Shown one piece after another: positions 1-44,459 of a DNA stretch of 44,459 nt. Below the pieces are notes generated by a model. The model worked only from the letters and a program-made list of their open reading frames with translations, was not told the origin of the DNA and made no database searches. A program made the translations under genes and the position numbers. How positions within the stretch are numbered: position 1 is the first letter of the stretch; the number at the start of each line of letters is the position of its first letter. The stretch comes from Tepidimonas ignava (GTDB lineage Bacteria; Pseudomonadota; Gammaproteobacteria; Burkholderiales; Burkholderiaceae_C), in assembly GCF_004342625.1 (NCBI RefSeq), contig NZ_SMAH01000006.1, forward strand, positions 122,501 through 166,959, read 5' to 3'.

Positions 1-2876
<2,876 letters not shown>

Positions 2877-2988
2877 TAGCTTTGCTAGCCAAGGTGCGGC
2901 GCGACCGCACCAACCACGACGCCGTCTTGGGCAGCTCCAAGCGACGACGTCATGACTTCGCCCCAAACGTGCTCGACTCTATGCAGCG

Positions 2989-3016
2989 CCTGGCCGCGCA
3001 ACACCCAGCGGCCAGG
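2989..3016 (+). other. Stem-loop in the 23S-5S spacer (likely rRNA processing stem)
   Basis: A 9-bp perfect stem, CCTGGCCGC (2989-2997) with GCGGCCAGG (3008-3016), lies about 12 bases before the 5S gene. A shorter stem GGTGCGG/CCGCACC is at 2893-2911. They are the only structures I see in the 151-base spacer between the two rRNAs. A role in rRNA maturation is inferred from position. Confidence 0.5.
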
Positions 3017-3027
3017 CCAACCGGTTA

Positions 3028-3145
3028 TGCCTGACGACCATAGCAAGGTGGTCCCACCCCTTCCCATCCCGAACAGGGCCGTGAAACACCTTCGCGCCGA
3101 TGATAGTGCGCCCCTTGAGCGCGTGAAAGTAGGTCATCGTCAGGG
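3028..3145 (+). rRNA. rrf: 5S ribosomal RNA
   Basis: The gene starts TGCCTGACGACCATAGC, followed by the conserved GGTGGTCCCACCCCTTCCC and CCGAACAGGGCCGTGAAAC. It closes with AAAGTAGGTCATCGTCAGG, which pairs with the 5' end (CCTGACGACC with GGTCATCGTCAGG) to form helix I. Length (about 118 nt) and position downstream of 23S are standard. The exact 3' end is uncertain by 1-3 bases. Confidence 0.95.
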
Positions 3146-38759: not shown

Positions 38760-38788
38760 GTGCCAATCCCCTGCACCTTTGTTACACT
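38760..38788 (+). promoter_or_regulatory. Promoter of the trp operon
   Basis: GTGCCA (38760-38765, 4/6 to TTGACA), a 17-base spacer and TACACT (38783-38788, 4/6 to TATAAT). Six bases separate the -10 from ATG 38795, so transcription is predicted to start at the leader-peptide start codon. Confidence 0.55.
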
Positions 38789-38794
38789 GCAGGC

Positions 38795-38899
38795 ATGCTA
38801 CCCGTGCGCCACCGCACCTTCGACGAACGCCTGGCGGCCGCGCTCAAGACCGGCCGCCGGGAGGCTTGGCCCTGGCGCAAGCCGACGACGCGCGCCTGA
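38795..38899 (+). CDS. trpL: Candidate trp leader peptide (34 aa, Trp-Pro-Trp)
   Basis: The ORF reads MLPVRHRTFDERLAAALKTG then RREAWPWRKPTTRA. Two Trp codons (38867-38869, 38873-38875) stand one codon apart, which is rare by chance in a 34-codon frame just before trpE. The ORF begins where the promoter at 38760-38788 would start transcription, so it is leaderless. The trp leader of Sinorhizobium is also leaderless, which is the best parallel I know. The function would be to sense Trp-tRNA and set the fold of the RNA downstream. Confidence 0.6.
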   Translation: MLPVRHRTFDERLAAALKTGRREAWPWRKPTTRA

Positions 38900-38968
38900 T
38901 TCCCATCGCCCGTAGGCGGGCGGGCGCAGGGACCCTCCAGCGGGGCCAAGCTCGCCCGACCCACCCCC
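38864..38968 (+). promoter_or_regulatory. Candidate trp attenuator with competing RNA stems
   Basis: Strand 1 with the Trp codons, GCTTGGCCC (38864-38872), is perfectly complementary to GGGCCAAGC (38943-38951). Strand A CGCCCG (38907-38912) and strand C CGCCCG (38953-38958) both pair with strand B CGGGCGGGCG (38917-38926). GGACCC/GGGGCC (38930-38935/38942-38947) competes with strand 1. A ribosome stalled on Trp would free 38943-38951. No T-run follows, so termination may be Rho-dependent or the effect may be on translation. Confidence 0.5.
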
Positions 38969-39022
38969 ATGTCGTCCGTTGCCGCCGCCTGCTGGCCGCG
39001 GCCCGCCAGGAGTTCCCAAGCC

Positions 39023-40543
39023 GTGATCACCGAATTGGAGTTTCGCAGCCTTGCCGCGCAGGGCTACCACCGCATCCCGTTGATCGCCGAGGCGTTTGCC
39101 GACCTCGAGACGCCGCTGTCGCTGTACCTCAAGCTGGCCCACGCCACCCAGGGCGGGCGCAATTCGTTCTTGCTGGAGTCGGTGGTGGGGGGCGAGCGCT
39201 TCGGCCGCTACAGCTTCATCGGCCTGCCCGCGCGCACCTGGTTGCGCGCCTACGGCTTTGGCGACGCCGCCCGCACCGAGGTGGTGCGCGACGGCCAGGT
39301 CGTTGAGACCATCCCCGGCAACCCGCTGGACGCCATCGCCGCGTACCAGCAGCGCCTGCGCGTGGCGCTGCCGCCCGGCTTGCCGCGCTTCTGTGGCGGG
39401 CTGGCGGGGTACTTCGGTTACGACACGGTGCGCCACATTGAGCGCAAGCTGCAGCACAGCTGTCCGCCAGACGATCTGCAACTGCCGGATATTTTGTTGC
39501 TGCAGACCGAGGAGCTGGCCGTCATCGACAACCTGTCGGGCAAGCTGTACCTGATCGTCTACGCCGATCCCGCGCAGCCCGAGGCGTACAGCGCCGCCAA
39601 GCGGCGGCTGCGCGAACTCAAGGAGCTGCTGCGCTACTCGGTCAGCGCGCCCAGCGTGCAGCCGGGGCAAGCGTACCCGGTGCAGCACGAGCGCACCCAG
39701 GCCGACTTCATGGCCGCCGTGGACGAGGCCAAACGCCTCATCCAGCAGGGCGATTTCATGCAAATCGTCATCGGCCAGCGGCTGCACAAAACCTACCCCC
39801 ACAGCCCGCTGGCGCTGTACCGGGCGCTGCGCTCGCTCAACCCCAGCCCCTACATGTACTACTACAACCTGGCGGGCGCCGACGCCGCGGGCAGCGATCT
39901 GCACGTCATCGGGGCGTCGCCCGAGATTCTGGTGCGGCAGGAGCGCTGCGCCGAAGGCGTCAAGGTGACGATCCGGCCGCTGGCCGGCACCCGCCCGCGT
40001 GGCAGCACGCCCGAGCAGGACGTCGCCGCTGAGCGCGAGCTGCTGGCTGACCCCAAAGAGCGCGCCGAGCATGTGATGCTGATCGACCTGGCGCGCAACG
40101 ACATTGGTCGCATCGCCCAGGTCGGCAGTGTCAAGGTGACCGAAGCGTTTGCCATCGAGCGCTACAGCCACGTCATGCACATTGTCAGCAACGTCGAAGG
40201 GCTGCTGCGCTCGGGCCTGACCAGCATGGACGTGCTGCGCGCCACCTTCCCCGCCGGCACCCTAACCGGTGCGCCCAAGGTGCACGCGATGGAGCTGATC
40301 GATCGGCTGGAGCCCACCAAGCGCGGCATCTACGGCGGGGCGGTGGGCTACCTGAGCTGGGCCGGCGACATGGACCTGGCCATTGCCATCCGCACCGGTG
40401 TCGTGCACAACGGCACGCTGTACGTGCAGGCCGCGGCCGGCGTGGTGGCCGATTCGGTGCCGGAGCTGGAGTGGCGCGAAACCGAACACAAGGCACGTGC
40501 GCTGTTGCGCGCCAGTGAGCTGGTAGAGGAGGGTTTGCAATGA
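39023..40543 (+). CDS. trpE: Anthranilate synthase component I
   Basis: 506 aa. It aminates chorismate to anthranilate with TrpG. Visible are the N-terminal LESVVGGERFGRYSFIGLPA (tryptophan feedback site LES-type), the chorismate-binding core HVIGASPEILVR, GTRPRG, ELLADPKERAEHVMLIDLARNDIGRI and FPAGTLTGAPKVHAMELID. GTG 39023 is preferred because the family starts (M/V)ITELEF and AGGAG lies 10 bases upstream; an ATG at 38969 in frame lacks a ribosome site. The stop overlaps the next ATG. Confidence 0.95.
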   Translation: MITELEFRSLAAQGYHRIPLIAEAFADLETPLSLYLKLAHATQGGRNSFLLESVVGGERFGRYSFIGLPARTWLRAYGFGDAARTEVVRDGQVVETIPGNPLDAIAAYQQRLRVALPPGLPRFCGGLAGYFGYDTVRHIERKLQHSCPPDDLQLPDILLLQTEELAVIDNLSGKLYLIVYADPAQPEAYSAAKRRLRELKELLRYSVSAPSVQPGQAYPVQHERTQADFMAAVDEAKRLIQQGDFMQIVIGQRLHKTYPHSPLALYRALRSLNPSPYMYYYNLAGADAAGSDLHVIGASPEILVRQERCAEGVKVTIRPLAGTRPRGSTPEQDVAAERELLADPKERAEHVMLIDLARNDIGRIAQVGSVKVTEAFAIERYSHVMHIVSNVEGLLRSGLTSMDVLRATFPAGTLTGAPKVHAMELIDRLEPTKRGIYGGAVGYLSWAGDMDLAIAIRTGVVHNGTLYVQAAAGVVADSVPELEWRETEHKARALLRASELVEEGLQ

Positions 40544-40881
40544 CAAGGCCGCAGGGCTTCAAGGCGGTGACGCTGCACACCATGACGGATGTGCGTCACC
40601 AAGTGGACACCCTGGATGCACAGCTGGTGCCGTTGCTGCTGCAGCGTCTGCAATGCATGCGTGCCGCCGCCCAGATCAAATCAAAACGCGACCAGGTCCG
40701 GGATGACCAACGGGTTGCGGCGGTGCTTGACCATGTCAAGCGGCGTGCCCGTCAGCTTGGCGCCGATGCCAGTGATGTCGATGCCATCGAGGCAATCTAC
40801 AGCCAGTTGATCGAGTTCTGCATCGGCTACGAATTGCGCCACTTTGACCAAAAAAGCGCGCAGCAGGAGGTTGGGCGATGA
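40540..40881 (+). CDS. Chorismate mutase (AroQ type)
   Basis: 113 aa, all-alpha AroQ fold: [36 protein letters not shown] holds the N-terminal Arg and Lys of the active site, and [20 protein letters not shown] is the third helix. It would turn chorismate into prephenate, the first step towards Phe and Tyr, and so compete with TrpE. Overlaps of 4 bases with trpE and trpG mean coupled translation. No dehydratase or dehydrogenase domain is fused to it. An isochorismate-pyruvate lyase of the PchB kind is a remote alternative. Confidence 0.8.
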
Positions 40882-43926: not shown

Positions 43927-44012
43927 GGAGGGGTGCCCGAGTGGCTAAAGGGGGCAGACTGTAAATCTGTTGGCTTACGCCTACGTTGGTTCGAATCCAA
44001 CCCCCTCCACCA
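43927..44012 (+). tRNA. tRNA-Tyr (anticodon GTA)
   Basis: 86 nt including the encoded CCA. The acceptor stem GGAGGGG pairs with CCCCTCC, the anticodon GTA is at 43961-43963 in CAGA-CTGTAAA-TCTG, a long variable arm is typical of class II tRNAs, and the T arm is GGTTCGAATCC. Confidence 0.97.
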
Positions 44013-44083
44013 GCGATACCGGTCGTGTCAGGCAAGAGAAGAAGGCTTGTGCTGGCCCGCGCTCGCGTCCGACGCGGTGTGTC

Positions 44084-44157
<74 letters not shown>

Positions 44158-44220
44158 GTGCTGCGCGCCGGGGGTTGGTTGTGCGGACCGTTTATTGTGG
44201 TCGCCGCAAGGCGGCCGCAG

Positions 44221-44459
<239 letters not shown>

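Follow-up and report, generated by a model that had tools for sequence, protein, structure and literature searches.

In the trp attenuator of Escherichia coli, a short open reading frame (ORF) with closely spaced Trp codons precedes trpE, and in translational attenuators of the ermC type a ribosome stalled on a leader ORF unmasks the ribosome-binding site (RBS) of the next gene. Predictions for betaproteobacteria may be contained in Vitreschak 2004 and in Merino 2008. Lopatovskaya 2010, which according to PMC4833913 outlined a mechanism overlapping the RBS, may hold betaproteobacterial predictions as well, and ermC is mentioned in PMC2965389. The nearest precedent that we have seen is the LEU element before leuA in Actinobacteria, whose authors were skeptical of classical attenuation and suggested a protein ligand (PMC1262725); it is compared here by description. 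In Sinorhizobium meliloti, the trp leader acts by transcription attenuation and yields an sRNA (PMC7298713). Leaderless starts form the context in which C. metallidurans, with 4.67% of primary start sites (PMC7563307), and B. cenocepacia (PMC4603805) are cited here; the main texts of both papers contain no word beginning with trp or tryptophan. Among the matches listed from the open-access literature there was no paper on a Burkholderiales trp leader, and the available portions of PMC2965389 and PMC1173090 describe none. The B. cenocepacia sRNA ncS35 was examined as a possible trp leader RNA and set aside, as it sits between BCAM2068 and BCAM2069.

Here we compare with these systems the trpE leader of Tepidimonas ignava, within a 44,459-nucleotide stretch of DNA that was analyzed whole and is called the window below. 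Our best explanation of positions 38780 to 39022, which we favor with a confidence somewhat short of even, is a leaderless trpL carrying a translational attenuator of trpE.

The trpE leader and its conserved reading frame

The + strand of the window encodes, in this order, TrpE, a chorismate mutase, TrpG, and TrpD, as assigned from Pfam matches and ORFs. The uvrA gene lies upstream of trpE and is divergent, with trpL and the leader between the two. Because the chorismate mutase gene sits between trpE and trpG, the chorismate-using enzymes of two pathways may share control. The window begins with a 23S rRNA gene, cut at its 5′ end, and a 5S rRNA gene (1–3145), and a cluster of tRNA-Tyr, tRNA-Gly, and tRNA-Thr lies at its end (43927–44295). 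The features discussed are as follows.

38780–38788, + strand: extended −10 element TGTTACACT, with the transcription start expected at or next to 38795
38795–38899, + strand: trpL, leader peptide ORF of 34 codons, MLPVRHRTFDERLAAALKTGRREAWPWRKPTTRA, a conserved Ala-Trp-x-Trp-Arg ORF
38831–38860, + strand: hairpin inside trpL, just 5′ of the Trp codons (38831–38840 with 38851–38860), in the predicted fold of the window leader
38863–38877, + strand: strand A, Trp codons 25 and 27 with their neighbors (GGCUUGG-C-CCUGGCG), paired with strand B in the predicted fold
38943–38951, + strand: GGGCCAAGC, the Trp-codon partner proposed by the initial annotation, an exact complement found in one of eight genus leaders and not considered functional
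39004–39022, + strand: strand B, the trpE RBS, with the Shine-Dalgarno (SD) sequence AGGAG at 39008–39012; its complementarity to the Trp strand is above shuffles in the genus
39023–40543, + strand: trpE, anthranilate synthase component I and the regulated gene, with a GTG start aligned with relatives (Pfam PF00425 and PF04715)
40540–40881, + strand: chorismate mutase type II gene (PF01817), between trpE and trpG

The initial annotation had proposed a trpL of 34 codons at 38795–38899, and the sequence bears out its description: Trp-Pro-Trp occupies codons 25 to 27, with the TGG codons at 38867–38869 and 38873–38875, and 123 bases separate the stop from the trpE GTG at 39023. Conservation of the Trp codons in relatives, a comparison that the annotation had suggested, was assessed in 217 trpE leaders, 80 from named loci and 137 from genomes of the window's family. 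The named loci take in Oxalobacteraceae and Burkholderia relatives, apparently other families of the order. Removal of 5 identical duplicates left 212 nonidentical leaders from the window's family and near relatives; 13 of these have no GCN-TGG-NNN-TGG-Arg motif, 3 have the motif and no ATG in range, and the other 196 carry trpL with its ATG, Ala-Trp-x-Trp-Arg/Lys, and the close Trp pair. On this comparative ground the ORF in the window is a real trpL; being conserved, it and its promoter are beyond chance. The leaders are related; the genus thins to 3 dissimilar leaders and the 141 Comamonadaceae-type leaders thin to 73. Clade labels are sequence-based proxies: three leaders (L110, L121, L162) are wrongly placed with Oxalobacteraceae/Burkholderia and one (L054) among the Comamonadaceae-type, and for a few leaders (L008, L055) the chosen trpL start is probably wrong.

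The leader peptide differs by clade. Typical forms are MFIHRTTITGCSDRGAWPWRKP... in the Comamonadaceae-type, MFITRKQIKGSNDRGAWPWRRP... in a group that we presume to be Sphaerotilaceae and label as such, MFLNKKRSLSSIDRGAWPWRRWSR in the Burkholderia-type, and ...EAWLWRRWQSW in the Oxalobacteraceae-type. Eight of the 11 genomes compared from the window's genus bear trpL leaders, with a version of their own, FDxRxAAALKTGRREAWPWR, that is conserved upstream of the Trp codons. This strongly conserved stretch coincides with the long, G+C-rich hairpin at 38831–38860, which by eye is also present in other genus leaders. Elsewhere in the genus, L119 keeps a promoter-like sequence, TTTGTTACACT, and lacks the trpL motif, a natural loss upstream of trpE; the leader region of L114 appears partly inverted near a contig end, by assembly error or rearrangement; and L120, in which the trpE 5′ end is absent and the match begins at residue 86, was not used. 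An ORF beginning in the conserved GAATGAAC motif was also considered and set aside because, by eye, its frame is not consistent.

The annotation also held that the ATG lies 6 bases after a −10 hexamer, and TACACT at 38783–38788 is indeed followed by 6 bases and then the trpL ATG. An extended −10 of the form TGnTAnnnT, ending 5 to 10 nt upstream of the trpL ATG, was found in 8/8 leaders of the genus and in 117/141 of the Comamonadaceae-type, 18/18 of the Sphaerotilaceae-type, and 3/29 of the Oxalobacteraceae/Burkholderia-type; none lies before the trpE starts of the same leaders. An SD-like sequence precedes trpL in 0/8, 2/141, 0/18, and 0/29 leaders of these four groups, respectively, and precedes trpE in 8/8, 106/141, 15/18, and 26/29. 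The conserved promoter spacing and the rarity of SD sequences support the proposal that trpL is leaderless, and its transcript probably begins at the AUG. A generic promoter scan, which requires a −35 element, found nothing in the window leader. Five relatives (L048, L051, L053, L055, L058) have TACAAT about 20 to 25 nt before trpE, resembling a trpE promoter of its own downstream of trpL.

Neither TrpR (PF01371) nor TRAP (PF02081) had a match in the window's own genome, which is 99.97% complete; control genomes known to encode them gave matches. Together with the conservation of trpL, this supports the suggestion that the Trp codons would control trpE. Rfam release 15, which presumably includes the Trp_leader family, gave no match to the leader at the gathering score, with two unrelated families appearing at chance level (E 1.3 and 5.8), and 20 relatives' leaders were likewise without a match. 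Given its composition, 38795–39022 has a predicted fold of unremarkable stability (z −1.19).

Candidate partners of the Trp codons

The initial annotation paired 38864–38872 (GCTTGGCCC) with 38943–38951 (GGGCCAAGC) as part of a candidate attenuator. The 9-base complementarity is exact; a Watson-Crick match of at least 9 arises in 3.9% of 2000 shuffles, so the match is weak by that standard. The partner sequence is confined to the window among the eight genus leaders and is missing even from L113, whose TrpE is 98% identical. We set this stem aside as real in sequence and not conserved, and do not consider it functional. The competing stems, CGCCCG at 38907–38912 and at 38953–38958 facing CGGGCGGGCG at 38917–38926, are present as described. 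Of a conserved, mutually exclusive antiterminator there was no sign in the one candidate examined, the annotation's stem, which occurs in one of the eight genus leaders.

Terminator scans agreed that the leader has no U-run, and no intrinsic terminator was found in the window. Hairpins with a U-rich tail between the Trp codons and trpE number 0/8 in the genus, where shuffles predict 0.2; the counts are 10/141 for the Comamonadaceae-type (7.4 expected), 5/18 for the Sphaerotilaceae-type (1.6 expected), and 16/29 for the Oxalobacteraceae/Burkholderia-type (2.8 expected). The genus count fits the annotation's expectation that the off-switch would differ from a classic intrinsic terminator. Classical ribosome-mediated transcription attenuation through a noncanonical terminator without a U-run, roughly what the annotation had in mind, could draw on the exact 9-bp match and competing stems of the window and on the hairpins with U-runs of the Oxalobacteraceae/Burkholderia-type relatives, but the terminator-like counts in the genus and the Comamonadaceae-type and the restriction of the stem to one genus leader speak against it, and we regard it as quite improbable here.

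Sequence comparison points to another partner. When the leader of the window is folded computationally, 38863–38869 pairs with 39016–39022 and 38871–38877 with 39004–39010, which covers the SD, and the same pairing between strands A and B is expected in six of the eight genus leaders (at least 9.9 pairs; 2.4 in L115 and 0.0 in L118). Complementarity of the Trp strand to positions −22 to −6 exceeds that of shuffles by −5.09 kcal/mol in the genus (p 0.008, n = 8, or 3 dissimilar leaders). In the Comamonadaceae-type (n = 141), the 5′ half of the strand shows an excess of −1.59 kcal/mol at −16 to 0 (p 2e-9) and the 3′ half one of −1.00 kcal/mol at −30 to −14 (p 4e-4), an arrangement that fits a single antiparallel helix; with 73 dissimilar leaders the values are p 3e-4 and 5e-3. 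The excess is weaker in the Sphaerotilaceae-type (−1.93, p 0.01, n = 18; thinned to n = 9, best p 0.04) and not significant in the Oxalobacteraceae/Burkholderia-type (n = 29; thinned to n = 17, p 0.07 and 0.09). All of these RBS-complementarity p-values are uncorrected for the number of windows.

The specificity of this pairing depends on the comparison made. Mean complementarity of the Trp strand is −19.8 kcal/mol for the trpE RBS versus −14.3, −13.7, and −12.9 for those of trpG, trpD, and trpC at the same loci, a difference owed in large part to G+C content; when the same 25 nt are shuffled for comparison, the trpE RBS has a mean z of only −0.42. Taken by itself, the pairing of the Trp strand in the window is not exceptional: 16 of the contig's 156 other RBSs reach its strength, as do 20.6% of G+C-matched windows. 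Covariation of A with B, assessed by species swaps, was not significant (z −1.5). The partner of the Trp codons that has comparative support is the trpE RBS at 39004–39022.

Predicted pairing by the first trpL codons

Relatives such as L005, L017, L066, L070, L074, L195, and L197 show a covarying helix between the opening codons of trpL and a site that lies downstream of trpL and before trpE. Helices of at least 8 bp occur in 61/141 Comamonadaceae-type leaders (8.3 expected from shuffles), 9/18 Sphaerotilaceae-type (0.4 expected), and 20/29 Oxalobacteraceae/Burkholderia-type (2.8 expected). Own partners were compared with partners swapped within the clade, as all-clade swaps are confounded by clade; the resulting p-values were 4e-13, 1e-3, and 2e-5 in the same clade order and, after thinning, 1e-7 (n = 73), 0.08 (n = 9), and 0.009 (n = 17). 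Four controls taken from other parts of trpL were null by swapping, with nt 16–27 slightly above shuffles (p 0.007). Covarying pairs include GUUCAUUC/GAAUGAAC, GUUUAUCC/GGAUAAAC, and GUUCAUCC/GGAUGAAC, and further CAAAAAACGU/ACGUUUUUUG, ACAACAAACG/CGUUUGUUGU, GCAAACGC/GCGUUUGC, GCAAGCAAACC/GGUUUGCUUGC, and CAAGCGUC/GACGCUUG. When each side of the helix was anchored on its own motif in 24 Oxalobacteraceae/Burkholderia-type leaders, 75% of cells paired, against 42–53% when slid by 1 to 3 positions, and 3 columns were changed on both sides, against 0 to 2 when slid. RNAalifold on 67 mixed leaders returned almost nothing, and smaller clades were used after that. In the Oxalobacteraceae/Burkholderia-type, the helix partner is the U-run of an apparent terminator (GUUUUUUG).

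The helix was not detected in the window's genus (p 0.93, 0.37, and 0.47). This result, the absence of the trpL motif from L119, and the conservation of the genus peptide upstream of the Trp codons would all suit a trpL that is translated with little or no cis control of trpE in the genus, either as a remnant or with its peptide or RNA acting in trans, as reported for peTrpL in alphaproteobacteria (PMC7298713). Such a trpL would not be expected to keep its Trp codons, promoter, and position in eight genus leaders, nor does it sit well with a genome lacking any TrpR or TRAP match, and we consider it improbable.

More compact leaders were collected in a set of 40, mostly from other families of the order, from which 18 were picked by eye; KKR-type leaders (L227, L229, L230), those with a distant trpL (L247, L258, L264), and those without a convincing trpL were left out. 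In these 18, trpL has 14 to 32 codons and, in 16 of them, stops 42 to 75 nt before trpE. Here, the first trpL codons are complementary to the trpE RBS itself (p 0.001 versus shuffles, 0.003 versus swaps), as in CCCGGAUCCUGAA/UUCAGGAUCCGGG (L242) and CUCCUGUA/UACAGGAG (L250), and four controls were null. Complementarity between the trpL start and the trpE SD reaches 13 bp (L241, L242, L248, L249, L250, L253, and others). In L246 the match is perfect over 26 bp and may represent a repeat. The same pairing was tested on a hold-out of 40 additional genomes, of which 18 qualified under a rule fixed before looking, with p 7e-5 and 2e-4; three controls were null, and the stretch just upstream of trpL was weakly positive (p 0.003 and 0.03), so that in some leaders the pairing strand may begin before the trpL ATG. 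Complementarity of the trpL start to the RBS is marginal in the Comamonadaceae-type (p 0.013, n = 73) and absent from the window's genus (p 0.73, n = 8).

A possible translational switch and its precedents

The cost of opening the trpE RBS was calculated with energies that take in neither pseudoknots nor kinetics, for 69 of 73 and 12 of 17 representatives, with 40 of 73 Comamonadaceae-type leaders serving for shuffle and mask controls. In the genus, opening is predicted to cost 13.3 kcal/mol when the leader is free, 7.9 with queued ribosomes, and 14.5 with a ribosome at the stop; the window values are 12.3, 6.4, and 15.2 kcal/mol. The genus gain of 5.4 from a queue compares with 0.6 when the 5′ part of trpL is shuffled (p 0.004, n = 8), and the queue eases opening in seven of the eight species, with no gain in L118. 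An equal or shorter mask placed between trpL and the RBS brings the genus cost to 9.8, with the queue lower (p 0.055). With a single stalled ribosome, the predicted cost in the window rises from 12.3 to 15.4, and the genus mean shifts only slightly, from 13.3 to 11.8 (p 0.16); the model for the window therefore depends on queued ribosomes. In the Comamonadaceae-type, the queue gain is not above that of shuffled sequences (0.27 versus 0.36).

Such a small predicted gain from RBS masking in the Comamonadaceae-type is one of the observations that would fit Rho-dependent attenuation, in which completion of trpL would leave a C-rich, ribosome-free stretch that recruits Rho and ends transcription, a stalled ribosome or active trpE translation would prevent termination, and RBS pairing would be secondary or absent. 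The genus has no intrinsic terminator (0/8), and from the trpL stop to the RBS the window has C at 0.46 versus G at 0.33, with C above G there in 8/8 genus and 131/141 Comamonadaceae-type leaders. The first 120 nt of trpE are equally C-biased, though (0.35 versus 0.24), so the bias is not special, and the focus of complementarity on the RBS would be left unexplained. We judge Rho-dependent attenuation to be unlikely, while giving it real weight.

The calculations were also run on the compact leaders, with the by-eye and hold-out sets pooled (n = 36). Opening their RBS is predicted to cost 11.3 kcal/mol when free; one ribosome at the first Trp codon lowers the cost to 8.9 and a queue lowers it to 6.0, and with a ribosome at the stop it is 10.9. 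The queue gain is 5.4, versus 0.4 with shuffled trpL (p 1e-8), and a mask between trpL and the RBS gives 7.1 (p 0.035). In the model, this response is what a translational attenuator should do. Our interpretation is that the first trpL codons of compact leaders would act as an anti-SD for trpE and that ribosomes at the Trp codons would prevent the pairing. The window's genus appears to mask the trpE RBS with the Trp-codon sequence instead.

Across much of the Burkholderiales, then, the first trpL codons may be the switch. Their partner would be the trpE SD in several families with compact leaders and a site upstream of trpE in leaders of the Comamonadaceae-, Sphaerotilaceae-, Oxalobacteraceae-, and Burkholderia-types, and the window's genus may have rebuilt the masking strand from its Trp codons; we offer this wider picture tentatively and would not put it at an even chance. 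Because the trpL-start helix also covers the start of trpL, a finished mRNA would translate neither ORF, and the decision would be made once per mRNA, by the first ribosome.

For the window, translational attenuation from a leaderless trpL would run as follows. Judging by the spacing, transcription from the extended −10 would start at the trpL AUG, and a ribosome would translate trpL during synthesis of the leader. With ample Trp-tRNA, it would reach the stop and leave, 38863–38877 would pair with 39004–39022 as computed, and TrpE would not be started. With scarce Trp-tRNA, the calculations suggest that ribosomes stalled at codons 25 or 27, and others queued behind, would hold trpL single-stranded, so that the trpE site opens and TrpE is made. 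Untranslated trpE mRNA may also be lost to Rho or to decay. If this is true, the textbook switch of transcription would have a counterpart acting on translation across a large bacterial order, and forms with and without a terminator would exist side by side. It would offer a clear system for studying how a once-per-mRNA decision arises from leaderless initiation, ribosome queues, and long-range RNA pairing, and how attenuators shift between transcription and translation in evolution.

Set against the E. coli attenuator, the present leader is without a terminator/antiterminator pair and without an Rfam match, and the RBS is the proposed controlled element. It differs from ermC in its signal, which would be a shortage of charged tRNA rather than an antibiotic, and in its masking strand, which would be formed by the sensor codons here and by the opening leader-ORF codons in other families. 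The S. meliloti rnTrpL RNA begins with the trpL AUG, as proposed here, and no transcription repression is stated for trpLE(G) in that species; its leader ends transcription by attenuation, whereas no terminator was seen here (PMC7298713). With the LEU element (PMC1262725), the leader shares sensor codons able to pair with the regulated gene's SD and the lack of an obvious terminator, and that element likewise has a further helix and a possible pseudoknot; what sets the present leader apart are its Trp codons, its place before trpE, its betaproteobacterial host, and its seemingly leaderless trpL.
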